Shown here: positions 7,844 to 64,000 of the stretch, in pieces
Numbering within the stretch: position 1 is the first letter of the stretch
Layout: every line of letters begins with the position of its first letter
Source of the DNA: Litorihabitans aurantiacus
GTDB taxonomy: Bacteria > Actinomycetota > Actinomycetes > Actinomycetales > Beutenbergiaceae
Assembly: GCF_030161595.1 (NCBI RefSeq)
Contig: NZ_BSUM01000001.1
Span: 1,302,001 to 1,366,000 of the forward strand
Direction of reading: 5' to 3'
DNA: 64,000 nt
The notes under the pieces: model-generated
Told to the model about the DNA's origin: nothing
Databases searched by the model: none
What the model saw: the letters and a program-made list of their open reading frames with translations, nothing else
Made by a program: the position numbers and the translations under genes

Positions 7844-8850
7844 CCGGGGCGCGTCCGCGGGGCTCCGGTGACCACCGTCCGGGACGGTGTCGACGATGCC
7901 CGCCGCGAGCATCGCCTGCGCCATCGCCTCCCACTGCGCCGGGTCGGTCTCGCCGCTCGTGCTCAGGTACGGGATGGTCGCCTCGAGCACCGCGAGGGCC
8001 TCCTGGCGGGCGCCGTCGGTCATGCCCGGGATGACGTCGGCCGCGATCTCGACGGCGGCCTCCGGATCCTCGATCACGGCCTCGACCCCGCGCAGGGTCG
8101 CGTCGACGAACGCCTCCTGCTGCTGCGGCGTCAGGTCGGAGGCGTCGGGCACCGCGATGCCCACGCTCACGAGAGCGGGCGGCTCGATCGCCCGGACGGG
8201 CTCCCCGCCGCGGCGAGCCGGACCGCGTCGCCGTTGACGTACCCCATCACGGCGTCGACCTCACCGCTCAGGAGGGCGGTCGTCTGCGTGAAGCCGATCG
8301 AGGTCACGACGGCGTCGTCCGTCGTCAGACCGCCCGCGTCGAGGATCTCGAGCAGCCCGAGCCAGGTGGAGCCGAACTCGCCGGCCACCCCGATCCGGAG
8401 GCCTGCGAGATCGGCGGGGCCGGTCACGTCGGAGTCCTCCGGCACGAGCAGGGCGACCGGCGAGCGTCCGTACAGGGTGGCGATCTGCGCCAGGTCGCCA
8501 CCGCCGGCCCGCTGCGCGAGGACCTCGTCCCCGCTGGCGACCACGACGTCCTCCTGACCCTGCTCGACCGCCGTGAACAGGCCCTCGTTGGCACCGTGGT
8601 GGCGCAGCTCGACGTCGAGACCCGCCTCGTCGTAGTACCCGTTCGCCTCGGCGACGTAGAACGGCGCGAACTGGATGTCGGGGACGTAGGTGAGGCCGAG
8701 CGTGACGGGAGCGGCGCCGTCGGTGGGTGTGTCGCCGTCGCCCTCCCCGGTGCAGGCGGTGAGGACCAGGACGGCGGCGACGGCGAGCGCGCCCGAGCGG
8801 GTGACGCTCGTGCGGGTGGCGGGGTCGGTGCGGGGGGTGGATCGGGTCAC
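7841..8850 (-). pseudogene. ribY: ABC-importer substrate-binding lipoprotein, RibY/NMT1-like (frameshifted)
   Basis: A secreted lipoprotein that would capture the ligand for the neighbouring permease. The signal peptide ends in the lipobox LTAC (about residue 33), followed by the NMT1/ThiY-type fold (TLGLTYVPDIQFAPFYVAEA). Membership of the riboflavin importer RibXY is inferred from the FMN riboswitch in front of the operon; by fold alone it could equally be a thiamine-precursor binder. The reading frame breaks at the CCCC run 8203-8206: adding one base joins ...GYVNGDAVRLAAAG to EPVRAIEPPALVSVGIAVPD and restores about 336 residues. A sequencing slip is likelier than true decay. Confidence 0.75.
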
Positions 8851-8956
8851 GTCTGGGCTCCAACGGGGATCGGGTGGGTGGTCGTGCGGGTGTGGGTGCT
8901 GCGGGGCGACGGCGGTCCGGGAAGAGGGTCGCGAACCACCGGGGCGGGGTGCGTCC

Positions 8957-9766
8957 TCATCGCCCCGCCATGGAGACGGCGCGCCGCTCGAGGAGACGGA
9001 CGAGGAGGTAGGCGGTCATCGCCGTCGCGGTGAGGACGACGAGGGTGGCGAAGAGACCGGCGGTGTCGCCGCGGGTGCGCTGGGTCTCCAGCAGCTGTCC
9101 CAGTCCGCGGCCGCCGATGACGAACTCCCCCACGACCGCACCGGTCATGGCCAGGGCGACACCGGCGCGGAGTCCGGCCAGCACCTGGCCGAGTGCGAGC
9201 GGCGCCTCGATGTGGCGCAGCAGCCGCCACGTCCCGGCGCCGTCCACGCGGGCCGCGGCGAGCACCTCGCGGTCGAGATCGCGCAGCCCCAGCGCGGTGG
9301 TGATGACGATCGGGAAGAAGACGAGCAGGGCCGCCAGCAGCGCCGTCGTGCCCGGTCCGTACCCGAACCACAGCACGAGCAGCGGCGCGATCGCGACGGC
9401 GGGGACGGCCTGGGACGCGGCCAGGTAGGGCTCGAGCGCGGCCGAGGCGCGGCGCGAGTGGACGATCGTCCACGCCAGCGGGAGGGCGACGACGACGGCG
9501 AGTGCGACCCCCTGCGCAGCGACCCCGCCGGTGGCGGAGACGGCCGGCCACAGGTCGCCGGTGCCGGCCAGCTCGACGAGGGCGGTGACGACGGCGGTGG
9601 GGGCCGGGAGCAGGAGCGGACCGACGCGGGTGGCGCCCCACGCCCAGACCGCGAGCAGGGCCAGTGCGAGCAGGAGCGCGGGCAGCGCCGTCGTGAGTGC
9701 ACGGGTGACGGGGCTGCGGGTGGAGTCGCGTCGCATCGCGGGGTGCGGGCGGGTGCTGCCGGTCAC
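8957..9766 (-). CDS. ribX: ABC-importer permease, RibX-like
   Basis: This 269-residue inner-membrane permease has about six hydrophobic segments and the EAA loop that contacts the ATPase (AARVDGAGTWRLLRHIEAP). It belongs to the SsuC/ThiX/RibX permease class. GTG 9766 was chosen because GGAGGGAG precedes it; the frame is open further upstream, but that part overlaps the riboswitch. It is the first gene after the FMN riboswitch and is followed 106 bp later by the substrate-binding gene. No ATPase gene is adjacent, so a shared or distant ATPase is needed. The riboflavin specificity is inferred from the riboswitch. Confidence 0.78.
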   Translation of the reverse strand: MTGSTRPHPAMRRDSTRSPVTRALTTALPALLLALALLAVWAWGATRVGPLLLPAPTAVVTALVELAGTGDLWPAVSATGGVAAQGVALAVVVALPLAWTIVHSRRASAALEPYLAASQAVPAVAIAPLLVLWFGYGPGTTALLAALLVFFPIVITTALGLRDLDREVLAAARVDGAGTWRLLRHIEAPLALGQVLAGLRAGVALAMTGAVVGEFVIGGRGLGQLLETQRTRGDTAGLFATLVVLTATAMTAYLLVRLLERRAVSMAGR

Positions 9767-9841
9767 GTGGGTCTCCCTCCGGGTAGCGTCGTCGCGTTCC
9801 GGGGAGACGGGTGCACACGGGTGCACCACGCAGGTGCGCGG

Positions 9842-9885
9842 CGTCGCGCGGCCGGGCGTGAACCCGGTCGGCGGAGCGCCGACGC
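9842..9885 (-). promoter_or_regulatory. Candidate expression-platform hairpins after the FMN riboswitch
   Basis: Just downstream of the aptamer two hairpins compete for the same bases: GTCGGCG/CGCCGAC (9867-9883, 3-nt loop) and CCGGG/CCCGG (9852-9867, 6-nt loop). They share bases 9866-9867, so forming one weakens the other, as expected for a switch. Neither has a U-tract, and the mechanism is not established. Confidence 0.35.
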
Positions 9886-9889
9886 ACCT

Positions 9890-10031
9890 CGTGCATCCTC
9901 CCATCCGGACTTTCACCGTCGGTCCTGGAGTTCCACCAGGTCAACCGCGCCCGCCCGCAGCGGAGGCTGCGTGCAGGTGCGGGTCGCGGACTGTCACCGC
10001 CGGCTCGGACTTTCACCGACCCCGGAGCACG
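9890..10031 (-). ncRNA. FMN riboswitch (RFN element)
   Basis: The minus strand carries the conserved RFN core in order: GGGTCGGTGAAAGTCCGAG, CCGGCGGTGACAGTCCGCGA, a variable arm, CTGGTGGAACTCCAG, then ACCGACGGTGAAAGTCCGGA and TGGGAGGA. The closing P1 stem pairs CGTGCTCC (5', plus 10024-10031) with GGATGCACG (3', plus 9890-9898) with one bulge. The element lies 124 nt before the ribX start, so it should lower importer expression when FMN is plentiful. This assigns the ABC system to flavin uptake with good confidence. Confidence 0.93.
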
Positions 10032-10047
10032 TGTGTGTTCTGCCGCG

Positions 10048-10053
10048 ATCCTA
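10048..10053 (-). promoter_or_regulatory. Candidate -10 element for the riboswitch-ribXY transcript
   Basis: TAGGAT on the minus strand lies about 17 nt before the first riboswitch stem, so transcription would start just ahead of the aptamer. No -35 consensus was seen. The rest of 10032-10154, between here and the next gene, shows only GC-rich sequence with a weak possible hairpin. Confidence 0.45.
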
Positions 10054-10154
10054 CCGGGCGCCGTCGGGCGACCGGCGCGACGCGGGTGTGACGTCCGCAT
10101 CGTGGCCTCGAGCGCCCCGCCGCGCGCGGGCAGCCATCACCCCGCGGGCGCTGC

Positions 10155-11607: not shown

Positions 11608-11628
11608 GCCCGCGGTGGCGGGCGGTGC

Positions 11629-13709: not shown

Positions 13710-13720
13710 AGTCGTTCGGA

Positions 13721-14386: not shown

Positions 14387-14392
14387 CTCGGC

Positions 14393-19273: not shown

Positions 19274-19279
19274 AGTCTA
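19274..19279 (-). promoter_or_regulatory. Candidate -10 element of fmt, leaderless spacing
   Basis: TAGACT on the minus strand ends 7 nt before GTG 19266, the same hexamer and spacing as at hisE. It supports 19266 as the true fmt start. Confidence 0.4.
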
Positions 19280-19938
19280 GGTGGGCCCGACACCGACGCC
19301 CGGAACCCCGAGCCCCACGAGCTCGGCCCGCAGCCGCTCCGCCGTCAAGAACACGCGACCGTGGAAGCCGAGCGCCCGGGCGGCCACCACGTTCTCCTCG
19401 CGGTCGTCCACGAAGACCGCTCGTGCGGGATCGACGTCGTGCTGCGCCACCAGGTGCCGGTAGATCGCGGGGTCGGGCTTGACCAGGCCGATCTCGCCCG
19501 AGACGACGACCGCCTCCAGCTCGCTGACCGTCGGGACGGCCGCGGCCCCGCGCGCGAACGTCTCGGCCGACCAGTTCGTCAGGCCGAGCAGCCGCACCCC
19601 GCGGACCGCAGGTCGGTCACGAGCTCCGGCATCCCCGGTACGGGCCCGACGATCGCATCCGCGAACGCGGCCTCGTAGCGGGCGAGGAAGCCCGCGTGCT
19701 CCGGCCACGACGCCGCCACCTCAGCCTCGAGCGACGCGAAGGACTCCCCCGCGTCGGCGCGGAGGTTCAGGCTCGGGAAGTCGATCTCGCGGGCGACCGC
19801 CTCCCACGCGGTGATCGAGAGGTGGGGGTGTGCCCGCCACGGCTCCCACCGCAGCACCACCTGCCCGAGGTCGAGCACCACCGTGTCCACGACGTCGCCG
19901 CCCCGGCCGTCGGGCCCTGGGGTCTCCGGTGCAGTCAT
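19277..19938 (-). pseudogene. HAD-superfamily hydrolase (frameshifted)
   Basis: A haloacid-dehalogenase-fold phosphatase of about 220 residues. Motif I is VVLDLGQVVLRWEP, motif II GLTNWSAETF, motif III the Lys in GLVKPDPAIY, and motif IV AVFVDDREENV. The frame breaks at CCCC 19597-19600: one added base joins VTDLRSAG to VRLLGLTNWS. ATG 19938 was chosen ahead of an upstream open stretch. All four motifs are intact, so a base-calling slip is more likely than decay. The substrate is unknown. It lies 28 bp before fmt and is divergent from the sigma-factor gene. Confidence 0.75.
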
Positions 19939-20044
19939 GCCAGGGATGCTCTCACGCACGACCGGTGGGCCCGTCCTCGCGCCGGTCGGCGCGCCCGAGC
20001 CCTAGGGTGGTGCCGCGGTACCGGCGCCGCGCGAGGGGAGTGCG

Positions 20045-23381: not shown

Positions 23382-25706
23382 TCAGAGGTCGCGCGGGTCG
23401 ACCACCACGCGCAGCGCACCGGACCGCTTGTGCGCGCTGCGCACGCCGAGGGCACCCTTGACCCCACGAGCCAGCGCGGCGCCCCGGGCCAGCGGTGCCC
23501 GCAGCACGAGGCGGGAGGGGTCGACGACGTCGTCGTCGCCCGTCACCTCGCCCGCCGCCACCGGGAACGGGCCGAGCACCTCCCAGGCGCTCGTGCCGCC
23601 ACCCGTGGCGCCGGCGCCGTCCGGGCCATCACCCGACCCGCGACCCGACCCGTGGCCCGGCTCCGTCGCGGCGACGACCTCGTCCCGCAGGTCGGTCACG
23701 GCCGCCAGCGCACCGGTGACCGTCACCACGCGGGCCGACGGCGGGAACCGCAGCTCGGCGCGCTCGGCCAGCTCGCGCTGGGCGAAGGTCACGGGGTCCC
23801 ACCGCACGAGGGCGGCGGTCACCACCGGCGTCCCGCCCCCGACGGCGACGACGCGGCCGCCGTCCGCCGCCCCGCGCGCCAGCCACGCCGCGGCGAGCCA
23901 GCGCCGCAGCGCCTCCTCGCTCCCGGCCATCCCGGGCAGCGAGGTGGCGAGCGCGCCGTCGAGCAGGACGACGCACGCGTAGCCGCCCTCGGCCTCCGGT
24001 TCGGCGCCCGGGGTCGCCACGACGATCCGCGGCGCGTCGTCGACGCGGTCGACGACGCCGTGGCCCGACTCGCTCGCCGTCACCGGGGTCTGCGGGAACG
24101 CCCGCCCCAGCTCCTCGGCGGTGCGGACCGACCCGACCCGCATCGCGCGCAGCCCCCGCCGCCGCACTCCGGGCAGCGCCACGGGTCGGCGGACGTGCCG
24201 CACGTCCCGCACGTCGGCGGTCCCGAGGCGGCCATCGCGAGCGTCCCGCCGCACGCGGCGCAGCGCGCGGGCGTCCGGCACCGGCTGCAGGCGAGGTGGG
24301 GCACGTAGCCCGCCCGCGGCGTCTGCACGAGGACGGGACCCGTCGTCAACCCCTGCCGCACCGCCTCCCACACCGGGGTCGGGATGCGCGCGTGACCGCC
24401 GGGTCCGGAGCGGGCCAGGTCCTCGGCGTCGGGCGCCGCGACCCGCGGGGCGAGCGTGCGCACGCGGGTCCTCTCGGCCCGCAGCGAGACTGCCCAGCCG
24501 GTCTCGACCAGGTGCTGCGCCCACACGGAGCGCGACGGCGACGCCAGCAGCACGGCGGCACGCTCGGGTTCCGCGCGCATCGCCAGCACCTGGGCCGCGT
24601 GCGGGTAGGGCGAGCGCTGTTCCAGCAGCGAGTCGTCACCGTCGTCCCAGCACACCACCAGACCGAGGTCGACCACGGGCGCCCAGGCGGCCGACCGCGT
24701 GCCGACGACGACGCGCGCCAGCCCCGTCAGCGCGCGCAGGTGCGCGCGGGCCCGCACCGAGGGGCCGTCGGACGCGACGAGACGCACGACTTCCTCCCCC
24801 AGCTCCTGCGCCAGGTGCGCGGCGATCGCGTCGACGTCGCGCAGGTCGGGGACGACGACGAGCACGCCCCGCCCCGCGGACCGCGTCGCGCGGACCGCCG
24901 CGAGCAGCCCGGCGCGCCACGTCGCCGGGCCGCCGACGACGTTCCAGACGGCGCGCGGCGCCTCGCCGGCGCGCAGGCGTCGCAGGAGGGCCGACCCCCG
25001 GGCACGTCGGACCACGGCCCGTCCGACGGCGCCGCGGCGCCGACACCGCCCTCCGCGACGGTCGCGCCCGGACCGTCAACCGGCGCAGCGGTGCGGCCGT
25101 CAACCGGCCCGGCGGTGCGGCCGTCGGCCGGCGCCACGTCCGCGCCCCCGGCCTCACCGCTCGTCGCGACACCGCTCGGCTCGTTCTTGGCCAGCGCCGT
25201 CAGCACCCCGGCCTCGGCGCGCGCGTGGCGCGGCGGGACAGCGAACCGCAGCACGTCGGTCAGCGTGCCGGCGTACCGCCCGGCGACAGCGCGAGCGAGG
25301 CCGAGCACCGCCGGCGTGAGGGTGACCACGGGCGAGACGAGACGCCGCAGGGGGCCAGCCGCCGCCCGGCGTCCTCGTCGGTGACGGGACGGACACCGAC
25401 GACCCATCCGTCCCGCTCACGCCCCGCGAACCGGACCTTCACGCGCGTGCCGACGGCGACGTCCTCGGGTCCCGCGGCACCCGGGAGCTCGTCGGGTACG
25501 AGGTAGTCGAACGGGCGGTCGAGGTGCGGCAGCGGGACGTCGACCACCACCTCGGCGACGGCCGTGGCCGGGACGGCGAGCTCCCGCCGGGTCGGAACGA
25601 CGGCTCGCGATCCCGATCGTCGCGTCGATGCCGTGCCCGCCTCCGACCCGTTCGGCTCCGGGGCCGCCGGCGCGGCGAAGAGGGCCCCGCCGTCGTCGTC
25701 CGTCAC
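23382..25706 (-). pseudogene. priA: Primosomal protein N' PriA-like (three frame breaks)
   Basis: Replication-restart protein of about 775 residues once three single-base gaps are repaired: GGGGG 25350-25354, CCCCC 24995-24999 and CCCCC 24153-24157. The pieces follow family order: the 3'-DNA-binding domain (VVVDVPLPHLDRPFDYLVP), the ATPase region (VVVPDLRDVDAIAAHLAQEL), the zinc-binding region ([26 protein letters not shown]) and the C-terminal domain. As is typical of actinobacterial PriA, Walker A is lost (NVVGGPATWR, no GKT) and the DEAH box is WDDGDDS, so helicase activity is doubtful. Three slips in one housekeeping gene argue for sequence error. It lies 34 bp after metK. Confidence 0.82.
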
Positions 25707-25740
25707 CTCGGGCTCCCGGACCGGCGCGGGCGTCGGGGTG

Positions 25741-26955
25741 TCAGGAGCGCCCGGCGACGGCGGCGCGCAGCGCGTCCGCGCGGTCCGTGCGCTCCCAGGT
25801 GAACTCGGGCAGCTCGCGCCCGAAGTGGCCGTAGTTCGAGGTGAGGGCGTAGATCGGGCGCAGGAGGTCGAGCGCGTCGATGATCGCCGCCGGCCGCAGG
25901 TCGAACACGGCGGAGATCGCGTCGCCGATCGCCTCGCTCGTCACGCCCTCGGCCTCGGTGCCGAACGTCTCCACGTACACGCCCACGGGGTGCGCGCGTC
26001 CGATCGCGTAGGCGACCTGGACCTCGCAGCGCCGCGCCAGCCCGGCCGCCACGACGTTCTTGGCGACCCAGCGCATCGCGTAGGCGGCCGAGCGGTCCAC
26101 CTTCGAGGGGTCCTTGCCCGAGAAGGCGCCGCCGCCGTGCCGCGCCATGCCGCCGTAGGTGTCGACGATGATCTTACGGCCCGTCAGGCCCGCGTCCCCC
26201 ATCGGCCCGCCGAGCGTGAACGCGCCGGTCGGGTTCACGAGCAGCCGCAGCCCCTCGACCCCGAGCCCCGCGGGCGCGTGCTCCGCCAGGACCGGCTCCA
26301 GCACGTGCTTCCGCAGCGCCGCGGCGAGCTCGTCCTCACCGAGGTCCGGGGAGTGCTGCGCCGAGATGACGACCGTGGAGACCGCGACCGGACGGTCGCC
26401 GTCGTAGTCCACCGTCACCTGCGTCTTGCCGTCCGGCCGCAGCCCGGCGACGACACCCTCCTTGCGCACGTGCGTCAGTCGCTCCGACAGGCGGTGGGCG
26501 AGGTGCACCGGGAGCGGCATGAGCGTCGGCGTCTCGTCGCTCGCGTAGCCGAACATCAGGCCCTGGTCGCCCGCGCCCTGCGCGTCGTAGGGGTCGATCG
26601 CGACGCCGTCGCGCACCTCGAGCGAGTCGGTGAGGCCCTGCTCGATCTCGGGCGACTGCTGCCCGATCGAGAGCGAGACGCCGCACGAGGAGCCGTCGAA
26701 CCCGACCTCCGAGGAGGTGTAGCCGATACCGGAGATGACCTGGCGCACCAGCGCGGGCATCTCGACGTAGCCGGTGGTCTTGATCTCGCCCGCCACGTGC
26801 ACCAGCCCGGTGGTCACGAGGGTCTCGACGGCGACGCGGGCTCGCGGGTCGGCCGTCAGCAGTGCGTCGAGGATGGAGTCGGAGACGAGGTCGCTCACCT
26901 TGTCGGGGTGGCCCTCGGTGACGGACTCGGAGGTGAAGCTGCGCAGGGTGGTCAC
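25741..26955 (-). CDS. metK: S-adenosylmethionine synthetase
   Basis: Makes S-adenosylmethionine from ATP and methionine in the cytosol. The 404-residue protein has all family signatures: [15 protein letters not shown], the hexapeptide GAGDQG, and [16 protein letters not shown] near residue 275. The open frame runs far upstream, but GTG 26955 gives the usual N-terminus ([11 protein letters not shown]) and is preceded by GGGAG. It sits between coaBC and priA, the conserved actinobacterial order. Confidence 0.97.
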
Positions 26956-44099: not shown

Positions 44100-46224
44100 C
44101 GGGATGGCTCCTTCGTCGCCTCGGTCGGACGGGCCGGTGCGCCCGGCGCCGGCTGCGGCACGGGGACGCTCGCGTCGCCGTGCAGCAGGTGGTGGATCTG
44201 GTCGAGCACGTGCGCGTTCTGCAGCGACGTCGCGTCCCCCAGTGTCTCGCGGTCGTGCACCTGGGCGAGCAGCCGCCGCATGATCTTGCCCGACCGCGTG
44301 CGCGGCAGGTCGGGGACGAGGACGACGCGGCGCGGCTTCGCGACGGGACCGATCGCCGTCGCGACGTGCGCCCGCAGCTCCTCCTGCGCGGCGGCCGACG
44401 CGGCGCGCCAGCCCGCCGTGTCGGCGGGGTCTGCCGGCGGTCGCGACGGGATGACGAACGCCGTGATCGCCTGCCCGGTCACGGGGTCGGCCACGCCGGC
44501 CACCCCCGCCTCGCCCACGGCCGGGTGCGCCACCAGCGCCGACTCGACCTCGATGGTCGAGAGCCGGTGGCCGGAGACGTTGACGACGTCGTCGAGCCGC
44601 CCCAGCAGCCAGACGTCGCCGTCGGCGTCGGCGGTCGCGCCGTCGCCCGCGAGGAAGTACCCCTGGCCGTCCTCGCCTGCACCGGCGTACGCGCGCCAGT
44701 AGGAGTCGAGGTAGCGCTGCGGATCGCCCCACACGGTCCGCGCCATCCCGGGCCAGGGGCGGTCGACGACGAGGCGGCCGCCCGCGCCGCGGGCCACCTC
44801 CTTGCCCTCGGGGTCCACGACCTTGACCGAGATGCCCGGCGTGGCCCGCGTGGCCGACCCGGGCTTGAGCGTGCTGGACCCCGGGAGCGGTGCGATCATC
44901 GCCGCACCGGTCTCCGACTGCCACCACGTGTCCACCACGGGGGCGCTCCCGGCGCCGATCTGCTCGCGGAACCAGACCCAGGCCTCGGGGTTGATCGCCT
45001 CGCCGACCGTGCCGAGGAGGCGGATGCTGGACAGGTCGTGCTCGGGCGGCACGCCGTCCGGGAACCACGTCATCAGCGTGCGGATCAGCGTGGGCGCCGT
45101 GTAGTAGGTCGTGACGCCGTAGCGCTCGATGATCTCGAGGTGCCGGGTGCGCCGCGGGGTGTCGGGCGTGCCCTCGTAGATCACCTGGGTGAGCCCGTTC
45201 GCGAGCGGACCGTAGATCTCGTACGTGTGCGCCGTGACCCAGGCGAGGTCGGCGGTGCACCAGTGCACGTCGTCGGGCTTCGCGTCGAAGTGCGCCCAGT
45301 GCGTCCACGCCGCCTGCGTGAGGTATCCGCCACTGGTGTGCAGCAGTCCCTTCGGCCGCCCCGTGGTGCCGGAGGTGTAGATGATGAACAGCGGTGTCTC
45401 GGAGTCGAACGACTCCGCCTCGTGGACGGGGTCGGCGGTGTCCACGACGTCGTGCCACCACACGTCCCGGCCGGGGGTCCACGGCACGTCCTGCCCGGTG
45501 CGCCGCACCACGAGCACGTGCTCGACGTGGTCCAGCCCCGCGACGGCGTCGTCGGCGGTCGACTTGACCTCGACGGCGGCGCCGCGGCGGAACTGGCCGT
45601 CGCTCGTGACGAGCACCTTGGCACCGGTGTCCTCGACACGGAACCGCACGGCCTCGGCGGAGAACCCGCCGAACACGAGCGAGTGGATCGCGCCGATGCG
45701 CGCGATCGCCAGGGTCACCACGATCGTCTCCACGATCACCGGGAGGTAGACGACGACGCGGTCGCCCTTCCCGACGCCCAGCGCGGTCAGCGCGTGCGCG
45801 GCGCGCGAGACCTCCCGCTGCAGCTGTGCGTAGGTGAGCGAGCGGGCCTCGCCGCGCTCCCCCTCGGCGTGGATCGCGACCTTGTCGCCGCGGCCCTCCT
45901 GCACGTGCCGGTCCACGCAGTTGACCGCGACGTTGAGCCGGCCGCCGACGAACCAGCGCGCCTCGGGGACGGTCAGCTCGCCGTCGGCCCCGCCCTCGAC
46001 CGGGACGGCCGGGGACCAGGTGTGGGCGGTGTGCCACGGGGTGTCCCAGCGCAGCCGGTGGGCCGCGCGCTCCCAGAACGCGACCGGGTCGCGCTCCCCT
46101 CGGCGAGCAGCCGCGCGTGCTCGGCGGCGTCGACGTTGGCGCTCGCGGCGAAGGCGGCGGGAGCCGGGTAGGTGCGGTACTCGGTCTGGAGGGCGGAGAT
46201 GGCGGACTGCGGCACGTCGGTCAC
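44096..46224 (-). pseudogene. acs: Acetyl-CoA synthetase (one frame break near the N-terminus)
   Basis: AMP-forming enzyme that activates acetate to acetyl-CoA. About 709 residues after repair, slightly long owing to a C-terminal tail of about 60. Motifs: FIIYTSGTTGRPKGLLH, TWWQSETGAAMIAP, VSGHRLSTIEVESAL and the catalytic, acetylation-prone lysine in RTRSGKIMRRLL. The break is at CCCC 46096-46099: one added base joins ARLLAEG to ERDPVAFWERAAHRLRW. GTG 46224 overlaps the permease stop. Every catalytic motif is intact, so sequence error is the likelier cause. Confidence 0.85.
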
Positions 46225-47140
46225 GACCACCGCCGCAGCAGGTGCTTCTCGGCGAGCCCGACGAGCGCGTTGGTCAGACCCCCGAGCAGCGCGAGCAGCA
46301 CGATCGAGAGGATCATCCGGTCCACGCGGCCGTTCTGGCCCGAGTCGACCAGCAGGAACCCCAGGCCCATCGAGGAGTTCAGCAGCTCCGCCGCCACGAG
46401 GAACAGCCACGACTGGGCCAGCGCCAGCCGCAGGCCCGAGACGACCGAGGGGACGACGGCGGGCAGCTGGACGCGTGCCAGCAGCCGCGGCCCGGTCAGC
46501 CCGTAGGCGCGGCCGGCCTCGACCAGGTGCGGGTCCACGTGGCGCAGCGCGCCCGCGACCGTCGTGTACACGGGGAAGAACGCCCCGATCGCGATGAGAA
46601 TGATCTTGCTGTCCTCGTTGATGCCCACCCACAGCACGAGCAGCGGGACCCAGGCGAGCGACGGAACGGCGCGCAGACCGTCGAAGGAGGGCGCGAGCAG
46701 CCCCCGCACGCGCGGCGAGAGCCCGACGACGGCGCCGAGCACCAGGCCGACCACGGCGCCGATCACGAAGCCGATGATCACGCGCTGGGTCGAGATCGCC
46801 ACGTACTGCCCCAGCAGACCGCGCTGCGCGAGGTCGACGGCGGCGGTCCAGACCGAGGCCGGGGACGGCAGGCGGTAGGCCGGGACGCGGCCGGTCTCGG
46901 TGACGAAGGTCCACGCCGCGAGCACGAGGAGCGGGAGGATCGCGCCGACGGCGACCCGGCGCCAGCGGGACCCGCCGCCCCCGCCGCCGCGGAGGCGTCA
47001 GCCACTCCGCGGCGGCCGTTCGGACCGCGGCGGCCACCCCGGCCGCTGCTCACCGGTCCCGAGGCGGTGTCGTGCGGCGCGCCGTCGCCGGCGGTCGCGT
47101 GCGCTGCCTCCGGGGGTGCCCCGGTGCTGGTCGCGGTCAA
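46221..47140 (-). pseudogene. ABC-importer permease, SsuC/TauC type (frame break)
   Basis: Inner-membrane permease of about 306 residues after repair, with about six helices and the EAA loop EAGRAYGLTGPRLLARVQLP. The class imports sulfonates, taurine, nitrate or similar. The start is a TTG at 47140 with GAGGAG 5 nt upstream; the first 50 residues are low-complexity Ala/Gly/Pro. The frame breaks at CCCCC 46978-46982, just before the first helix (RRVAVGAILPLLVLAAWTF). It stands between the binding-protein gene and acs; its stop overlaps the acs start. Confidence 0.8.
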
Positions 47141-47193: not shown

Positions 47194-48273
47194 TCAGTCG
47201 GCGATCGTGGCGGGGTCGGCCGCCTCGGCGTAGGTCGGCTCGAGCAGCTCCGCCAGCGCCGCGTCGATCTGGCTCTGGTCGGCGACGTCGCCGCCGTCGA
47301 CGAAGAACGGGCCGACCACCTCGAGCACGGTGCGCTGCGCCTCGCCCGGAACGGGGTCGATGTCGACGGCGGTGCGCTCGGTGAGGACCTTCTCCGCGAT
47401 CGCCCCGTCGATGCCGGCGGCCTCGGCGAGGATCGCGACGGCCTCGTCCGGGTTCGCCGCGACCCACTCGCGGGCCTTCGCGTAGGCGTCCACGACGACC
47501 TGGGCGAGGTCGGGGCTCTCGCTCAGGAAGCTCTCGGTGGCGTTCAGCAGGCCGTAGGTGTTGAAGTCGACGTTGCGGTACAGCAGCGTCGAGCCCGCCT
47601 CGATCTCGCTGGTGGCCATGAGGGGGTCGAGGCCGGCCCACGCGTCGACGGCGCCGCTCTCGAGCGCGGCCTTCCCGTCAGCGTGCTGGAGGTTCTGGAC
47701 CTCGACGTCCTCCAGGCCGAGCCCGGCCTCGTCGAGCGCCTGCAGCAGGAAGAAGTACGGGTCGGTGCCCTTGGTCGCGGCGACGGAGGTCCCGGCGAGG
47801 TCGGCGACCGACGTGATCGCGGAGCCCTCGGGCACGACGATGGCGGCCCACTCCGGCTGCGAGTAGACGTAGATCGAGTGGATGGGCGACCCGTTCGACC
47901 GCGCGAGCAGAGCCGCCGAGCCCGCTGTCGAGCCAACGTCGACGACGCCCGCGCGCAGCGCCTCGTTAGCCTTGTTCGACCCCGCCGACTGCACCCAGGT
48001 GACCTCGACGTCGTCGCCGAGCGTCGCCTCGAGCCACCCCTGGTCCTTGATGACCAGGCTGAGCGGGTTGTACGTCGCGAAGTCGATCGCGAGCGTGTCG
48101 TCGCTCCAGCCGTCGGTCTCGCCTGTCGCGGCCCCACCGGGGTCGGCGGCGCCGCCCTCCCCGGCGACGCAGCCGGTCAGGGCGAGAGCCGCGGCGAGAC
48201 CGGCCGCCGACAGGGCGAGCACGGGCTGGGTGCGCACGGCGGCGGTCGCTGCGCGCCAGGGGCGGATCGTCAT
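47194..48273 (-). CDS. ABC-importer substrate-binding lipoprotein, SsuA/TauA type
   Basis: This 359-residue secreted lipoprotein has a signal peptide ending in lipobox LTGC (about residue 35), then a periplasmic-binding-protein type II fold of the nitrate/sulfonate/taurine family: NPLSLVIKDQGWLEATLG, VVDVGSTAGSAALLA, and SVAATKGTDPYFFLLQALD. Sulfonate specificity is inferred from the linked metY; it is not proven by sequence. ATG 48273 overlaps the ATPase stop (ATGA). Confidence 0.87.
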   Translation of the reverse strand: MTIRPWRAATAAVRTQPVLALSAAGLAAALALTGCVAGEGGAADPGGAATGETDGWSDDTLAIDFATYNPLSLVIKDQGWLEATLGDDVEVTWVQSAGSNKANEALRAGVVDVGSTAGSAALLARSNGSPIHSIYVYSQPEWAAIVVPEGSAITSVADLAGTSVAATKGTDPYFFLLQALDEAGLGLEDVEVQNLQHADGKAALESGAVDAWAGLDPLMATSEIEAGSTLLYRNVDFNTYGLLNATESFLSESPDLAQVVVDAYAKAREWVAANPDEAVAILAEAAGIDGAIAEKVLTERTAVDIDPVPGEAQRTVLEVVGPFFVDGGDVADQSQIDAALAELLEPTYAEAADPATIAD

Positions 48274-49210
48274 GCGGACTCCTGGGTGGGGGCTGAGGGG
48301 GTGGCTGGGGTGATGGTCGGGGCGTCGCCGTCGTGCGCCGCGGCTGCGGACTCGGCGGTCTGCGCGCCGGCGACGCGCGCCGGGACCCCGAGGCCGCCGA
48401 GCAGCTCGGCGCGCAGCGCCGCGAGCGCGGGGTCGGCGTGGTCGCGGGGGCGCGGACCCGGGACGTCGATGACGTCGCGGACCGACGCCGCCCCCGGGGC
48501 TCCGACGGGTGCCGCCGGGTCGATCGTGCGCAGCACGACGATGCGGTCGGCGAGCACGAGCGCCTCGTCGACGTCGTGCGTGACGAGCACGACGGTGGTC
48601 GGCTCGGCGGCGTGGATCGTGAGCAGGAGGTCCTGCATCTTCAGGCGCGTGAGCGCGTCGAGGGCGCCGAACGGCTCGTCGAGCAGCAGGACCGCGGGGT
48701 TGCGGGCGAGGGCGCGCGCGAGCGAGGCGCGCTGGGCCATGCCGCCCGAGACCTGGCGGGGCCGCAGGTCGGCCGACGCCGTGAGGCCCACCAGCTCCAG
48801 GAGCTCCGCCACGCGAGCGGCACCGGCGGCCTTGGGCGTACCCCGAGGAAGCCCGAGGCGCACGTTCTGCGCGAGGGTGCGCCACGGCAGCAGGCGCGGT
48901 TCCTGGAAGGCGACGGCGGTGCGCGGGTCGACGCCGGCCACGGCGCTCGACCCGATGAGGATCTCCCCGCGGTCGGGTGGTCGAGCCCGCTGATCTGACG
49001 CAGCAGCGTCGACTTCCCGCAGCCCGAGGTGCCGAGCACCGCGACGATCTCCCCGGCCGCGATCTCGAGGTCCACGCCGGCCAGCACGGGGCGCGGCCCG
49101 GCGGGGGTGGTGAACGTGCGCTGCACGTCACGCAGCGCGACGGCCTCGGCAGTCTGGGCGTGCACGGGCGTCGCGGCGTTCGGGCGCGCGGGGCGTGCGG
49201 TGAGCGACAT
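48270..49210 (-). pseudogene. ABC-importer ATPase, SsuB/TauB type (frame break)
   Basis: Cytosolic ATPase of about 313 residues after repair. Walker [13 protein letters not shown]-loop FQEPRLLPW, signature [16 protein letters not shown], Walker [14 protein letters not shown] and switch His in LVTHDVDEAL are all intact. The break at CCCC 48965-48968 separates GLDHPTAG from [11 protein letters not shown]; one added base restores it. ATG 49210 has GAGGA upstream. It is the first gene of the sulfur operon. In the 155-bp gap upstream I see only a weak TTGACG near 49369-49374 as a promoter candidate. Confidence 0.83.
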
Positions 49211-49365
49211 CGGGTCCTCGGTCTGCCGGGTGTCCCGGCGGGCAGGTGGACGGGCGGGCGGGACGCCGCCGCAGCAGCACCCTCGGCCAGCAGGCTACGA
49301 ACGAGGATGGCGTCGATCCACCGCGGCCCGATTCCTCTTACATCGTGAGACGACGCGACCGTTCG

Positions 49366-51812: not shown

Positions 51813-53341
51813 GGGAGCACCTGCCCGGCGATGACCTGGGCGATCGCCCACGGCGAGTACGGCAGGCCGGCGGCGACCCCGAGCGCGATCGTGAGCGCCG
51901 CCGTCACCACCGGGGGTGCGACGAGCGCGAGCGGCGCGCCGAGCCGGGCGCGCGGGCGCGCACCGTCGTCCTCCTGCGCCCACGGTGCGTCGTCGGCGGG
52001 CGGCAGGGCCCACATCCGGTAGACGACCGGCAGGAAGTAGGCGGCGTTCAGGACCGTGCTGGTCAGCAGCACGGGTACGACCCAGCCGTCGCCGGCCTGG
52101 AGCGCACCCGAGGCGAGCGCCCACTTCGAGACGAACCCGGCCAGCGGCGGCAGCCCGATCATCCCGAGCGCGGCCACGGTGAAGGCCGCCCCCGCGAGCG
52201 GCATTCGCCGCCCCACCCCGGCGAGCTCGCTGACGCGGCTCACCCGCAGCTCCTCCGCGAACAGTCCCGCGCAGAAGAACAGCGTGATCTTCATGACCCC
52301 CTGGTTCACCACGTGCACGAGCGCCCCCGCGACCGCGAGCGGGCTGAGCAGCGCGGCGCCGAGCGCGACGTAGGACAGCTGCGAGACCGTGGAGTAGGCC
52401 AGCCGCTTCTTGAGGTCGTCCTGCGTCAGCGCGCGCACGGAGCCGTAGAGGATCGTCACCGCGGCGGTGACGGCGAGCACCGTCAGCAACCCGAGGCGCG
52501 CGAGCAGCTCGGCGCCGAACACGTCGTGCACGACCCGCACGACGCCGAACGCGCCCGCCTTCACGACGGCGACGGCGTGCAGCAGCGCGCTCACCGGAGC
52601 CGGCGCGACCATCGCGGCGGGCAGCCACCCGTGCAGCGGCAGGATCGCCGCCTTCACGCCGACGCCCACGAGCATCATCGCGGCGATCGCGGTCACCGTG
52701 ACCGGCTCCTCCTGCGCGAGGCGCGCGACGGCGTCGACGCCGCCCGAGGTGAACTCGACCGGCCCGACCTCGGCGGTCAGCCAGACCACGCCGGCGAGCA
52801 GGACCACGCCACCGGTGAGGGTGTAGGCGAGGTAGCGGCGCGCCCCCGCGAAGGCCGCGGCGGTGCCGCGGTGCGCGACCAGCGGGTAGGTCACGAGCGT
52901 GAGCATCTCGAAGAAGATCAGGAAGGTCAGCAGATTGCCCGCGAGACCGATGCCCGCCGTCGCGGTGACGCAGAGGCTGAAGAAGCCGAAGAATCGACTC
53001 CGGTTGGGCGAGCCCTCCAGGTAGCCCACGGCGTAGACGGTGGTCACCAGCCAGAGCACCGCCGAGAGCGCCCCGAAGAACAGGCCGAACGAGTCCGTCA
53101 CCAGCACGATCTCGATGCCGGGCACCCACTCGAAGGACGCGCGCTGCTTCTCCCCGTTCACCACGGGCGGGATCAGCGCGACCACGAGCGCGATCTTCAC
53201 CAGCGCCCCGCCGAGGTTGATCGCGGTCCGCGTGCGCACCTGCCCCTCCCGCAGCGGGAAGATCGCGAGCGCGGGCAGCAGCGAGGCGAGCAGCACGAGG
53301 TACGGGATCGGGCTCGCGGTCACGACGGCGTCGGGCGTCAT
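51809..53341 (-). CDS. mnhD: Mrp-type antiporter subunit D
   Basis: This 510-residue proton-conducting subunit has about 14 helices. Key residues seen: TM5 glutamate in LIFFEMLTLVTYPLV, TM7 lysine in VGVKAAILPLHGWLP, the broken-helix lysine in AVAVVKAGAFG, and the later DDLKKRLAYSTVSQL. All expected pathway residues are in place. ATG 53341 overlaps the previous stop (ATGA). Confidence 0.9.
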   Translation of the reverse strand: MTPDAVVTASPIPYLVLLASLLPALAIFPLREGQVRTRTAINLGGALVKIALVVALIPPVVNGEKQRASFEWVPGIEIVLVTDSFGLFFGALSAVLWLVTTVYAVGYLEGSPNRSRFFGFFSLCVTATAGIGLAGNLLTFLIFFEMLTLVTYPLVAHRGTAAAFAGARRYLAYTLTGGVVLLAGVVWLTAEVGPVEFTSGGVDAVARLAQEEPVTVTAIAAMMLVGVGVKAAILPLHGWLPAAMVAPAPVSALLHAVAVVKAGAFGVVRVVHDVFGAELLARLGLLTVLAVTAAVTILYGSVRALTQDDLKKRLAYSTVSQLSYVALGAALLSPLAVAGALVHVVNQGVMKITLFFCAGLFAEELRVSRVSELAGVGRRMPLAGAAFTVAALGMIGLPPLAGFVSKWALASGALQAGDGWVVPVLLTSTVLNAAYFLPVVYRMWALPPADDAPWAQEDDGARPRARLGAPLALVAPPVVTAALTIALGVAAGLPYSPWAIAQVIAGQVLP

Positions 53342-54815
53342 TGCGCACCTCCGACGAATCCGGCCTCGAGGACCTCCACCAGCGGCGCTGCGGCCAGGCC
53401 CAGCACGAGGGCGAGCAGGGCGAGCACGAACGGCACGATAGTGAGGACCCCGCCGACCGCGACGGCCGGCCGCGGGACGTCCGGCTCGCCGGGGACGTTG
53501 AACGTGGCCCGGACCATCGCCGCGGTGTAGGCGAACGCGAGCAGACCGCCCACGAGCAGCGGGAGGAACCACCACCACTCGTCGGACGCGACCGCGGAGG
53601 TCAGAAGCTGCCACTTGGGCACGAATCCGAGCGTGGGTGGCAGACCCGCGAGGCTGACACCGGCGATCGCGAGCGCCGCGACCGTCATCGGCATCCGGGT
53701 CACGGCGCCGCGCAGCCCCTCGAGCCGGTCGCTGCCGTAGGCGAGCGCCAGCGTGCCCGCCGCCAGGAACATCGCGGCCTTGGCCAGCCCGTGCGCGACC
53801 GCCATCGTGACGCCGCCGCTCCACCCGGCGACCGCGGCGTCGTCGAGCACGCCGTCGAGCGGGGCGGCGAGCGCGAGCACCAGCACGAGGTAGCCGACCT
53901 GCGAGACGGTGGAGTAGGCGACGATCTGCTTGAGCCGCCGGCGTCGCAGCGCCATCACGGCGCCCGCCACGACGGCGACGGCCCCGAGCGCGGCCACGGC
54001 CGTGCCCACGCGTGCGGCCGCGGGCGTGCCGGGGGCGAGCTGGAACCACACGCGCCACAGCACCACGAGCGACGCCTTGATCACGAGGGCGGACAGCACC
54101 GCGCTCACCGCGGCGGGGGCGGCCGGGTGCGCCACGGGCAGCCACGAGTGGAGCGGCACGAGCGCGATCTTGGCGCCGAGCCCGACGGCGCACAGCACCA
54201 GCACCACGGGCAGCAGCGGGCTGTCGGCCATCCCCTCACCCGCGAGGGCGATGTCGAGCGTGCCGGTCTCGCCGTAGACGAGCGCGACCGCGAGCAGGAA
54301 CAGCAGCGACCCGACGACGGCGACGTACAGGTACCGCAGCGCGGCGCCGGCCGCGCCCGACCCCCGAGGGCCACGAGGCAGACGGCCGCGACGGTCACCA
54401 GCTCGAGCGTCACGTAGGCGTTGAACAGGTCGCCCGCGACCCACACGCCGTTGAGCGCACCGAGCAGCAGGAGCCACAACGGCCAGAAGGCCCCGGTACC
54501 GCGGACCTTCGCGTGCCCGGTCGCGTACAGCGTCACGGCGGGGGCGACGACGGCGGTCAGCCCGAGCATCGCGGCCGTGACCGCGTCCGCCCGCAGCGCG
54601 AGTCCGACCGGGAGGTCCCACCCCGCCAGCACGACCTCGGCGGTGCCGGTGCGCGCGACGTCGAGCGCCACCACGAGGGAGGCGAGCGCGGTCGCGACGA
54701 CGACCACGACGGCGACCGCGGCCCTCGCGCGCTCGGGCACGACCGCGAGCGCGCCGCCGGCCGCGACGGGCAGCAGCACCAGGAGCGGAAGCAGCACCGT
54801 GGTCACCTCGCTCAC
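53338..54815 (-). pseudogene. Second MnhD-type antiporter subunit (frame break)
   Basis: About 492 residues after repair, with the same fold as its neighbour: TM5 glutamate in YVTLELVTVAAVCLV, then GAKIALVPLHSWLPVAHPA, ALVIKASLVVLWR and LKQIVAYSTVSQVGYL. The break is at CCCCC 54361-54365; one added base joins VCLVALGG to SGAAGAALRYLYVAVVG. All functional residues are intact, so a sequencing slip is likely. GTG 54815 overlaps the mnhC stop. Confidence 0.83.
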
Positions 54816-55198
54816 GCGCCACCTCCCCGGCCGCCACCTTCGGCGCGCTCGTCCGGCTCCGCGTCCGTGACGTCACCGTCGTCGTCGACGGCCTCGTCCT
54901 CCTCGTCGGCGTCGCGGACGCGCCGCGCCAGCGCGAGGGCCAGGGCCGTGACGGCCGCCATGATCACGATGCCGGTGAGCACGAGCGCCTGCGGCACCGC
55001 ATCGGGGTCGACGGCGTCGCCCCCGTCGGTGGCGCCGGTCCCCCGCAGCGCCAGCGCCAGCAGCACCATCATCACGCCGCCGGAGGCGACGTTGAGCGCC
55101 ACGATCCGGCGCACGTGGTCACGCACGAGCAGGTGCCCGAGCAGACCGACCACCAGGACCAGCACCCCGGTCAGGAGGGTGAGCCCGACGAGGCTCAT
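54812..55198 (-). CDS. mnhC: Mrp-type antiporter subunit C
   Basis: This 128-residue NuoK-like subunit has three membrane helices (LTLLTGVLVLVVGLLGHLL, VASGGVMMVLLALAL, ALVLTGIVIMAAVTALALAL) followed by an acidic Asp/Glu-rich tail. PQALVLTGIVI is the family signature. ATG 55198 overlaps the stop of the preceding gene. Confidence 0.9.
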   Translation of the reverse strand: MSLVGLTLLTGVLVLVVGLLGHLLVRDHVRRIVALNVASGGVMMVLLALALRGTGATDGGDAVDPDAVPQALVLTGIVIMAAVTALALALARRVRDADEEDEAVDDDGDVTDAEPDERAEGGGRGGGA

Positions 55199-58646: not shown

Positions 58647-58684
58647 GAACGGGCCGTGGCACCCCGGGGCGCCCGGGTCCGTTC
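58647..58684. terminator. Hairpin between flotillin and sfp-like genes
   Basis: GAACGG (58647-58652) and CCGTTC (58679-58684) enclose the GC-rich inner palindrome CCCGGGGCGCCCGGG. It lies exactly between two convergent genes and can end both transcripts. Confidence 0.6.
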
Positions 58685-59452
58685 AGGACCCCAGTGCCCC
58701 GGGGCCGACGATCTCGACGGGGTGGGGCCGCACTGCCGCGACGGCGCGGTGGTGGGTGCCGTCACCGGGCAGGTCGGCGACGCTGAGCCGCGCCACGGCG
58801 GCCACGGGTGCCGCCAGAACGGCGCGCCACGAGAGCTGCCCGTCGCTCCGGTGGTGGGACGACGTCGTCGCGTCCGCCGGGGCGAGCAGCACCTCGTGCG
58901 GTGGCAGCCGCAGACCCAGGCCGGCGGCCTTGAGCACCGCCTCCTTCTCCACCCAGCGCTGCAGCCGGGCGCGCCCGGGATCGGCGGCGCGGGCGACGGC
59001 GTCGCGCTCCCGCGGGTGCAGCGTGAACTCGTCCAGGCCCGGGGACCGCTCGAGCGCGGCGGGCGTCGCCGTCTCGACGTCGACCCCGACGCATGCCTCC
59101 TCGGGTCCGACGGCGACCAGGACGCGCTCACCCGAGCCGGACGTGCTGAGGGACAGGCCCGCCGTCCGCGGCCGACCGTGCGGGCTGTCGCAGTCCTCGC
59201 ACCGGCGCTCGATCACCAGCTCCGGGGCGTCCGCGAGCGGGCGTCCCGTCCGGGTGAGCACGAGGAGCCGCAGCGCCGCGCGCCCGGCCAGCGTGCGCCG
59301 GGCGTCGTCCGGCCGGCGACGGCGTGCGGCGGCGACGCGGTCGACGTCGTCGACCATCGCCGCCGCGGCCTCCTGCGGTGCGAGCCGGCCCCCGTGAGGC
59401 GGGCGCACCGCTCCAGCACGTCCGTCACGGACGCGTCCAGGAGCGTGATCAC
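58683..59452 (-). pseudogene. 4'-phosphopantetheinyl transferase, Sfp type (frame break)
   Basis: Activates carrier domains by attaching phosphopantetheine to their serine. About 256 residues after repair. Signatures: GVDVETATPAALE (magnesium and CoA site) and LQRWVEKEAVLKAAGLG (the WxxKEAxxKA core). The frame breaks at CCCCC 59389-59393, joining ERCARLTG to GRLAPQEAAAAMVDDVDR when one base is added. GTG 59452 overlaps the exporter permease stop. Being last in the NRPS operon, it most likely activates the PCP domain there. Confidence 0.83.
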
Positions 59453-60378
59453 CGCTTGCTGATGCGGCGGTACTGCCCCACGGCGATCGGCGCGAAGATC
59501 GCGATGATCGCGATGCAGCACAGGAACGCGTAGAGCGTGGCGTGCTGCGCCGCCCAGCCGGCTGCGACCTCGAAGTCCTCAGGCGGCTGGTTCCCGAATC
59601 CCTGCCGGACCGCGGTGGCCACGGCGGTCACCGGGTTCCACTCGGCGATCGTCCGCAGCACGCCCGGGAGCGTGTCGGCGGAGACGAAGGCCCCGGAGAT
59701 GAAGCAGACCGGGAACAGCCACAGCAGCCCGAGGCTCTGGGCGACCTCCACGCTGCGGGCCGTGAGCGCGATCGTCGCCCCGATCCACGACGTCGCGAAC
59801 GCGAACAGGACCAGCAGACCGAAGGCGCCCAGCGCCGGACCGATGCCGGCGTGCACGCGCCACCCGATGGCGAGCCCGCACGCCACGATGACGGCGATGG
59901 AGATGCCGCTCGTGACCAGGTCGGAGGTGGTCCGACCCAGGATGACCCCGACGCGTGACATCGGCAGGGCCCGGAACCGGTCGATGAGGCCGGACTGCAG
60001 GTCCTTCGCGAGGTAGACGGCCGTGAAGGAGGAGTTGAACGTCAGCGTCTGCGCGAGGATCCCCGCGATGAGGAACTCCCGGTAGGCCTCCCCGCCCAGC
60101 GCACCGCCGAACACGAACGCCAGGATCAGCACGAAGATGATCGGCTGCGCGACCCCGGTCACGAGGGCCCCGGGGGTGCGACGGACGTTGACGTTGTTGC
60201 GCCGGGCGACGATCCAGCCGTCGCGCAGCGCCGAGAGCAGCGGTGCGAACGCACCGCCGCGGGGCTCGGGCACGAGGCTGCTCGTGGCGGTCGGGCGCAC
60301 CTCGCCCGAGGCGGCGCCGGTACCGACGTCGCAGGCGGGACGGCCGGTCGTGGACCGGTCGGTCGTCGCGGTGCTCAT
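59449..60378 (-). CDS. ABC-2 type exporter permease, DrrB-like
   Basis: This 309-residue membrane protein has about six helices and the ABC-2 pattern VTGVAQPIIFVLILAFVFGG, YLAKDLQSGLIDRFRALPMS and PVCFISGAFVSADTLPGVLR. It pairs with the overlapping ATPase gene. This class exports drugs, lipids or peptide products and often confers self-resistance; in this operon it probably exports the NRPS product. ATG 60378 overlaps the ATPase stop. Confidence 0.9.
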   Translation of the reverse strand: MSTATTDRSTTGRPACDVGTGAASGEVRPTATSSLVPEPRGGAFAPLLSALRDGWIVARRNNVNVRRTPGALVTGVAQPIIFVLILAFVFGGALGGEAYREFLIAGILAQTLTFNSSFTAVYLAKDLQSGLIDRFRALPMSRVGVILGRTTSDLVTSGISIAVIVACGLAIGWRVHAGIGPALGAFGLLVLFAFATSWIGATIALTARSVEVAQSLGLLWLFPVCFISGAFVSADTLPGVLRTIAEWNPVTAVATAVRQGFGNQPPEDFEVAAGWAAQHATLYAFLCCIAIIAIFAPIAVGQYRRISKR

Positions 60379-61597: not shown

Positions 61598-61668
61598 GTT
61601 CTCGTCCTCATCCATACGTCGTCAGCAGGTCTCACCAGGGGTTCGGCGCCGCGGGTGGGATCGGATGG

Positions 61669-61716
61669 GTGCCCGGGCCACATTTGTTCGATTCGGAACG
61701 AATGCGACCCGGGCAC
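61669..61716 (-). terminator. Long hairpin between the NRPS and mbtH genes
   Basis: GTGCCCGGG (61669-61677) pairs with CCCGGGCAC (61708-61716), and inside it CATTTGTTC pairs with GAACGAATG with one mismatch. The resulting stem of about 18 bp lies between the NRPS stop and mbtH. It may terminate part of the NRPS transcript or protect its 3' end. The inner AT-rich symmetry could also be an operator. Confidence 0.55.
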
Positions 61717-61732
61717 AGGAGCCGGCACACCG

Positions 61733-64000
61733 TCAGGCGCGCGGCTCGTCCCGGCCCAGCAGCGCATCGAGCACGGGTGCGAGCTCCGGCATCGCCTCGT
61801 CGGCCAGCATGTCGCTGTGTCGGACGCCGACCCGGGAGGACGTCACCTCACCGCTCACGTGGGCCTCCCACGCCGAGGGCGAGGGTCGGTCGGCGGGGAT
61901 CTCGCGCGTCGCCTCGACGACGTGGAGGTCACCGTCGAACGTCGGCACCGGGGTCGCGTCGAGCAGCTCCCCGAGCCGCACGAAGCGGCGCACCATGCGC
62001 TCCACCGCAGTGACGGGAACGTCGGCGAGCGGGTTGTCGACCTCCGCCAGCAGACGGCGGACCGCGTCGACGTCGAGCTCGACGTCGGCCGGCGCCGCGA
62101 TCCCGTTGGCGTCCAGCAGCCCGCGCCACATGGCGTCACCGCCGGCGACGCCGGCCAGCGCCGACTCCCGCGTGGGGTAGGCGTCCAGCACCACGAGGAG
62201 GGCGACCTCCTCACCGCTGCTGCGCAGCCGTGCCGCCAGGTGCTGCGCGAGCCGGCCGCCGAACGACCACCCCATCAGGTGGTACGGCCCGTGGGGCTGG
62301 ACCTCGCGCATCGCCCCGACGTAGCTGTCGAGCAGCTCCTCGATGGTCCCGGCCGTGGGCGGCTCGGGCTGGTCGGGCGCGATGCCCGGCATCTGCAGAC
62401 CGAGCAGCGGCCGCCGCGAGGACAGGTGCTGCAGCAGCACGGCGTACTTCCAGCTCAGACCGCTCGCGGGGTGGACGGCGAACAGCGGTGCGCCCGTGCC
62501 CTGCTCGCGCAGGGGCAGGATCGTGCGCAGGCTGTCCGCCACGGTCGAACCGGCCCCCTCGCCGGCGGACGCGAGCGCGGCCAGCGCGGCCACGGTCGGC
62601 GCCCGGAAGAGCGCCTGCACCGGCAGGTCGCTGCCCAGCGCCTCGTTGACCGCCGCGACGGTCGGCTGGGCCACGAACGAGTGGCCGCCGAGCTCGAAGA
62701 AGGAGTCCTCCGCCGAGACCGCCGACTCCCCTCGCCCAGGCCGAGCACCCGGGCGAACGCCGCGGCGACGGCGCGCTCGGCGTCGCCCTCCGGGGCCCGG
62801 CCACCGGCCGCCCCCGCGTGCTCCAGCTCGGGCAGAGCGGCCGCGTCGACCTTGCCGTTGCGGGTCAGCGGGACCTCGTCGATCACGCGCACGGCGACCG
62901 GGACCATGTAGTCCGGCACGCGCGAGCGCAGGTCGGCGAGCAGGGCGGCGGTGAGGTTCTCGGGCTCTGCGTCGCCGGAGGCGACCACCCACGCCCCGAG
63001 GGCCGTCGCACGCCCGGTGTCGACCGGTCGCACCACGGCCCGCTCCACGCCGTCGGACCGGCGCAGCAGCGCCTCCACCTCACCCGGCTCGACGCGGTGG
63101 CCGCGGATCTTGACCTGGTCGTCGCTGCGGCCGAGGGACACCACGCGGCCGTGGGCGGGTCCGGCGTCGCCCTCGCGGGCGGGCCGCACGGCGACGAGGT
63201 CGCCCGTGCGGTACATCCGGCTCCCGTCGGCGGCGAACGGGTCGGCGACGAACCGCTCCGCGCTCGCCCCGGGGCGACCGGCGTACCCGTGAGCGAGCTG
63301 CTCACCCGCGAGCCACAGCTCACCGACACCGCCCGGCACGGTGGGCCGCAGCGAGGCGTCCAGCACGTAGCCCCGCGTCCCCGGCGTCGTGGCCCCCAGC
63401 ACGGGCGCGTCCGTGTCCGCCACGCGCGCGACGAGCGAGTCGACACCCACCTCCGTCGGGCCGTACAGGTTCCAGGCCTCGACGCCCGTGCGCTCGCGCA
63501 GCCAGTCCCACAGCCCGCCGTCGATCGCCTCGCCGCCCAGCAGGAGCGTGAACGGCGCGTCCGCGGGACGGGAGTCGAGCACGTCGGCGAACGACGTCTG
63601 CGCCACCAGCGCGGCGACGTAGCCCGGCGTGGTCTCCCACGCCGCGACGCCTCGCTCCGCGAACAGGCGCACGAGCGCCTCGGGGTCGCGGCGCACGTCG
63701 TCGGCCACCACGAGCAGCTCGTGACCGGCGGCGAGCCACAGCACGGGGTCCATCGCGGCGTCGAAGCCGACCCCGGTGGTGTGCGCCATCCGCACGCGGC
63801 GGAGCTCGGGGTCGGGCAGCAGCGTGGCCCGGTGCGAGGCGAGCAGGTGCGCCAGCGCGCGGTGCGGCACCTGGACGGCCTTCGGCTCACCGGTCGTGCC
63901 GGAGGTGAACACGAGGTACGCCGGGTCGTCGAGATCCGGCGTCACCGCGGCCCCGGTGTCGTCCGCGGCCTCCGCGACACCGCCCGCTCCCCCGTCACCG
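61733..64000 (-). pseudogene. Non-ribosomal peptide synthetase, A-PCP-TE (frame break; 5' end outside window)
   Basis: The visible 756 or so residues form a terminal NRPS module. Adenylation domain: A3 LVFTSGTTGEPKAV, A5 NLYGPTEVGVDS, A8 GRSDDQVKIRGHRVEPGE, A10 LTRNGKVDA. Carrier domain: FFELGGHSFVA, with the phosphopantetheine serine. Thioesterase: MGWSFGGRLAQ with the nucleophile serine, and the late His in VRHSDMLAD. The frame breaks at CCCC 62728-62731, between A and PCP; one added base joins LGLGEG to ESAVSAEDSFFELGG. My by-eye specificity code is D-A-D-T-L-G-L-V-D-K, with no substrate assigned. It continues past the right edge. Confidence 0.85.

Follow-up and report, generated by a model that had tools for sequence, protein, structure and literature searches.

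Frame breaks in a Litorihabitans aurantiacus genome assembly are best explained by under-called G/C runs

Introduction

Consensus sequences built from nanopore reads keep insertions and deletions in homopolymers, which surface as frameshifts in gene calls (PMC9262707). In a Klebsiella genome, errors at Dcm motifs, followed by wrong homopolymer lengths, make up most of the errors in nanopore consensus (PMC6591954), and in one Pseudomonas assembly deletions are most frequent following runs of four to five bases (PMC12007338). Here, we consider a window of 64,000 bases (C1:1302001-1366000, the whole stretch of DNA that was analysed) in the assembly of Litorihabitans aurantiacus, in which priA, acs and several other genes lose their reading frame at or near short runs of G or C. 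These breaks are almost certainly due to consensus under-calling of G/C runs in the assembly, not to real mutations.

The assembly (3.85 Mb, 75% G+C) consists of five contigs, one of which accounts for 3.67 Mb, and its completeness is 95.28% against 99 for the two congeners used for comparison, G001 (two contigs) and G002 (20 contigs, a number that suggests a short-read assembly). Other relatives, such as Miniimonas arenae (G007, family Beutenbergiaceae), provided further references for individual genes. Pseudactinotalea terrae (probably G017) is in this family too, as is Beutenbergia cavernae, for which one paper gives non-pathogenic as a keyword (PMC3035217).

Results

A preliminary description of the window had listed eleven breaks, each put down to a single base missing from a G/C run of four or five. 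Ten of them were confirmed by intact same-family orthologues, while the eleventh, in an SsuC-like permease, is undecided. All ten read as one base short, as claimed, a length that frameshift-aware alignment gives modulo three. The run context holds for nine of the ten, in which a G/C run of four to five lies within 3 bases of the computed break interval (for the HAD-family hydrolase, with one of two reference proteins), and in acs a run of four sits about 10 bases off that interval.

The pattern is not limited to the window. When stop-to-stop open reading frames (ORFs) of at least 30 amino acids from 900 kb of the main contig (C1:800-1700 kb, the part of the genome covered by the test for breaks) were compared with the coding ORFs of G002, 102 breaks were found in 584,635 homology-covered bases, 98 of them read as short and four as extra. 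Three of the four extras align to G002 as two-base losses and the fourth is not sharply placed, in keeping, as far as this check reaches, with the original remark that none of the breaks is a gain. Breaks are present in 17 of the 18 bins of 50 kb, both core and accessory genes are hit, and a G/C run of at least four is touched by 81 of the 93 sharply placed short breaks, compared with 12.3% of same-width control positions. The equivalent test on G002, run to completion, gave no break in 335,648 bases, and a second one gave none in 413,437 bases among the matches listed. In G001, 19 breaks were found in 353,428 bases, every one of them short, so that errors of this type seem to occur in the G001 assembly as well, though less often. 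Break counts vary with the filters used and the coding-filtered count of 102 is the one reported; in an earlier, smaller survey, 50 of 52 breaks in L. aurantiacus were short, as were all 14 in G001. As a separate observation, G001 metK (C2:503387-504600, minus strand) matches in two pieces that lie in different frames.

Run lengths were also compared directly, a check against close relatives that the preliminary description had proposed and whose outcome was as predicted there. Across the 679,772 bases of the L. aurantiacus assembly that blastn aligned, G002 runs with conserved flanks are read one base shorter in 19 of 263 cases for runs of five and in 8 of 15 for runs of six, that is, the rate of loss climbs with run length, and none of the 278 compared runs of five and six is longer. 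The same comparison between G001 and G002 gave 0/4 losses from six to five and 3/133 from five to four. Runs of at least six are also scarcer in L. aurantiacus, at 6.3 per 64 kb (four in the window itself) against 15.6 in G002 and 14.7 in G001.

The losses fall into two classes that differ in their sequence context. Breaks at runs that now measure at least five have no context, with GGAG, GAGG or GAAG nearby in 9 of 40, compared with 22% of 200 six-base runs of G002. At runs that now measure four, the next base is A in 33 of 41 breaks and the one after that is G in 35, with A or C before the run in all 41; the full motif [A/C]GGGGAG is found at 28 of these 41 breaks, compared with 2/11 in G001. 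GGAG lies within 4 bases of 30 of the 41, against 22.2% of G002 five-base runs, and GAGG is close by in 11 of the 15 breaks that have no run of four, against 17.1% of random positions. Among orthologous sites, [A/C]GGGGGAG is one base shorter in 11 of 55 cases, against 6 of 166 for other five-base runs (Fisher p = 0.0003), and none of 20 TGGGGGAG sites is shortened; for G001 the first two proportions are 0/33 and 2/83. Such p-values are only descriptive, because the motif was spotted on the same sites, and a census of the motif is a more independent check. Per 100 kb, [A/C]G5AG occurs 24.9 times in L. aurantiacus, 29.2 in G002 and 31.2 in G001, and [A/C]G4AG occurs 50.9, 41.5 and 39.6 times, respectively. 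The novelty here is that six-to-five losses are context-free and five-to-four losses are concentrated at [A/C]GGGG-AG, a concentration not seen in G001. In listings of the nanopore literature, no description of a GGAG/GAGG or CTCC error context was found.

Of the 617 ORFs of G002 with an L. aurantiacus homologue (at least 50% identity), 86, or about 14%, are hit by a break, the 617 being counted before the coding filter and the 86 after it. Thirteen genes have two or more breaks. An NCBIfam scan of ten of them, from which priA was left out along with two more, gave, above the curated cut-offs, 2-isopropylmalate synthase (leuA) with three breaks, the 3-isopropylmalate dehydratase large subunit (leuC), RelA/SpoT, an error-prone DNA polymerase and glycogen synthase with two each, and a tandem-95 repeat protein; three others match below the cut-offs and one is without a match. 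On either side of the breaks, protein identity is retained. Gene decay is implausible given that priA and leuA are broken three times each and leuC and relA/spoT twice, the multiply broken genes being presumably essential in this species.

Within the window, the ribY-like gene (NMT1/THI5 family, 7841..9015, on the minus strand like every gene in this paragraph) breaks at about 8197-8205, with Pfam NMT1 in the 5' piece and both frames spanned by orthologues from G001, G002, G006, G009 and G011. The HAD-family hydrolase (19277..20001) breaks at about 19595-19605, with Pfam HAD in the 3' piece and both coding-strand frames covered by orthologues from G001, G002 and G006. In priA (23382..25940, Pfam PriA_3primeBD), the three breaks at about 24153-24160, 24992-24999 and 25350-25355 are all covered by the G002 orthologue, and those of other relatives cover one or two each. 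The acetyl-CoA synthetase gene acs (44096..46235, Pfam ACAS_N and AMP-binding) is broken at about 46094-46113, near the N-terminus, which runs on in another frame by comparison with G007. In the SsuC-like ABC permease (46221..46997, Pfam BPD_transp_1), the conserved part matches relatives in one frame and the N-terminal tail varies too much for the claimed break to be judged. The SsuB-like ABC ATPase (48270..49294) breaks at about 48963-48979, where ABC_tran is divided between two ORFs whose frames are both covered by orthologues from G006, G007 and G009, and the mnhD-like antiporter subunit (53338..54872, Proton_antipo_M) breaks at about 54358-54365, both frames being covered by the G001 orthologue. 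The sfp-like phosphopantetheinyl transferase (58683..59460) is broken at about 59376-59393, with Pfam ACPS in the 3' piece and the N-terminal motif in another frame by comparison with G002. Finally, the non-ribosomal peptide synthetase (NRPS; 61733..64000, extending past the window) breaks at about 62719-62742, its AMP-binding, PP-binding and thioesterase domains being spread over two frames that orthologues from G001 and G002 both cover. In these last two genes, the length of the surrounding linker is also unlike that of the relatives, hence the proviso on lengths modulo three.

These assignments come from several lines of comparison. With tblastn, ORFs from the corresponding regions of five relatives reveal frame changes within orthologues at 8.20, 19.60, 24.16, 24.99, 25.35 and 62.73 kb; the breaks at 48.97 and 54.36 kb were seen with copies located elsewhere in the relatives' genomes, and those near 46.1 kb in acs and near 59.38 kb in the sfp-like gene by side-by-side three-frame readings. 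The survey with G002 as sole reference recovers six of the ten confirmed window breaks, and the remaining four depend on further references or on different readings. In an unsupervised frame scan, changes at ordinary gene boundaries, checked for extra breaks in part, were set aside.

Two further candidates in the window were rejected. A break in a permease near 9.9 kb was dismissed, the conserved DNA there being a flavin mononucleotide (FMN) riboswitch (9889-10032, minus strand; Rfam RF00050, 82.9 bits), located upstream of both the permease gene and the ribY-like gene, which supports a role for the two in riboflavin transport. A twelfth break near 22.7 kb reads as two adjacent genes. A coding-like open frame (22136-22699, plus strand) follows directly on a stop codon, has no clear start and precedes an OmpA-like gene; the N-terminus of this frame could represent one more break. 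The portion at about 40.5-57 kb, with metY-like, acs, ssuABC-like and mnh-like genes, has no blastn alignment longer than 600 bases to the syntenic regions of G001 or G002, and a close mnh cluster sits elsewhere in the G001 genome.

L. aurantiacus and its congeners G001 and G002 were searched for three methyltransferase families (PF01555, PF00145 and PF02384). PF01555 has a single match, in L. aurantiacus only; PF00145 matches in G002 only, and PF02384 in G001 and G002. The closest solved relative of the PF01555 gene, although distant, is M1.HpyAVI (5hek, E 2.7e-21, 79 bits), an enzyme reported to methylate GAGG, GGAG and GAAG (PMC5173035). The gene is part of a stretch at about 1608-1617 kb of the main contig (C1), amid phage-like exonuclease, primase-like and RuvC-like genes.

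Discussion

Homopolymer under-calling, the cause originally proposed, is supported by the direction of the losses, their run context, their wide spread and the intact orthologues in relatives, all of which, like the sequence context, were observed directly, and also by the deficit of runs of at least six relative to two congeners and by the repeated breaks in core genes. The likely scenario is that of a long-read assembly left un- or incompletely corrected by accurate reads, in which the basecaller or the consensus step would lose one base in roughly every second G/C run of six and, less frequently, in runs of five, chiefly in the context [A/C]GGGGGAG. Each loss would shift the frame, which is why intact genes would look like pseudogenes. 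The platform was probably an R9-like nanopore, and the reads would be expected to disagree with the assembly at the break sites.

Several points weigh against this explanation. Only 15 six-base runs were open to direct comparison. Without the coding filter, the L. aurantiacus survey gives 175 breaks, of which 158 are short and 17 extra (49 in G001, 39 short and 10 extra). The relatives' runs of at least six also fall below the expectation of a Markov model, so that this expectation alone was rejected as proof of a run deficit and only the difference between L. aurantiacus and its relatives counts. Moreover, of the 93 sharply placed short breaks, 12 are not in contact with any G/C run of at least four, and some losses lie outside long runs, in contexts rich in GGAG/GAGG; the restriction to runs of four to five, as first described in the window, does not hold genome-wide.

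Could the breaks be real? A decaying or hypermutating lineage that drops bases in G/C runs would leave true pseudogenes, and runs, where the breaks do lie, are natural slippage sites. However, slippage of this kind is very hard to reconcile with the complete lack of gains among the compared runs and with 98 short breaks out of 102, nor would decay be expected to break priA and leuA three times each with identity retained on both sides, and the loss of some 14% of the compared genes would hardly be bearable for a free-living cell; we thus consider real mutations extremely improbable. Even less credible is that the broken genes still yield full proteins, either by programmed frameshifting or by slippage of transcription in the runs. 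G runs can slip and the protein segments on either side look functional, but a programmed site is expected to be conserved, and the relatives used carry these genes in one frame, G002 being free of breaks over its 335,648 tested bases.

An artefact that is biological in part is less improbable than these two, but we still deem it unlikely. Under this scenario, losses at [A/C]GGGG-AG and near GAGG would mark native N6-methyladenine (6mA) at GGAG/GAGG that misleads the basecaller, and six-to-five losses would be plain homopolymer errors. Such a scenario would fit the proximity of GGAG to 30 of the 41 four-run breaks and of GAGG to 11 of the 15 breaks without a run of four, the scarcity of [A/C]GGGGAG at G001 breaks (2/11 against 28/41), and the presence, in L. 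aurantiacus only among the three genomes searched, of a PF01555 gene whose closest solved relative is reported to methylate these very motifs (PMC5173035). But the motif was seen first and then tested on identical sites, a plain GGAG methylase predicts something other than 11/55 shortened motif sites and 0/20 TGGGGGAG sites, the similarity to M1.HpyAVI is distant, and the gene, surrounded by phage replication genes, may be silent. A weakness of the basecaller at particular pore k-mers fits equally well and is at least as likely as methylation to be the cause of the context, and the methyltransferase search covered three families. The specific proposal that the losses are the footprint of native 6mA laid down by a prophage M1.HpyAVI-like methyltransferase, with no PF01555 match in the two congeners, is improbable; if true, the frameshifts in a finished assembly might by themselves reveal a trace of the methylome.

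Under-calling of G/C runs has practical consequences, since the gene calls of this assembly are unreliable, with 86 of 617 compared genes looking broken, and caution is needed, for this species, with pseudogene counts, completeness scores and apparent gaps in pathways. The context bias further suggests that assembly frameshifts can bear a strain- or pipeline-specific signature.

Compared with described systems, the breaks resemble Dcm-site nanopore errors (PMC6591954) in that a motif concentrates errors in one genome without doing so in a relative, but differ from them in that only some of the motif sites are hit, bases are lost from runs, and the pattern is known here from sequence alone. The kind of artefact is already in print, and the L. 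aurantiacus breaks are one instance of it. The homopolymer errors of R9.4.1-type nanopores (PMC9262707, PMC12007338) share with them run deletions and broken gene calls, and the breaks are likewise absent from the 20-contig, short-read-like relative; the present case differs in that the runs examined are G/C runs of a genome with 75% G+C, and in that one class of errors has a strong flanking context.

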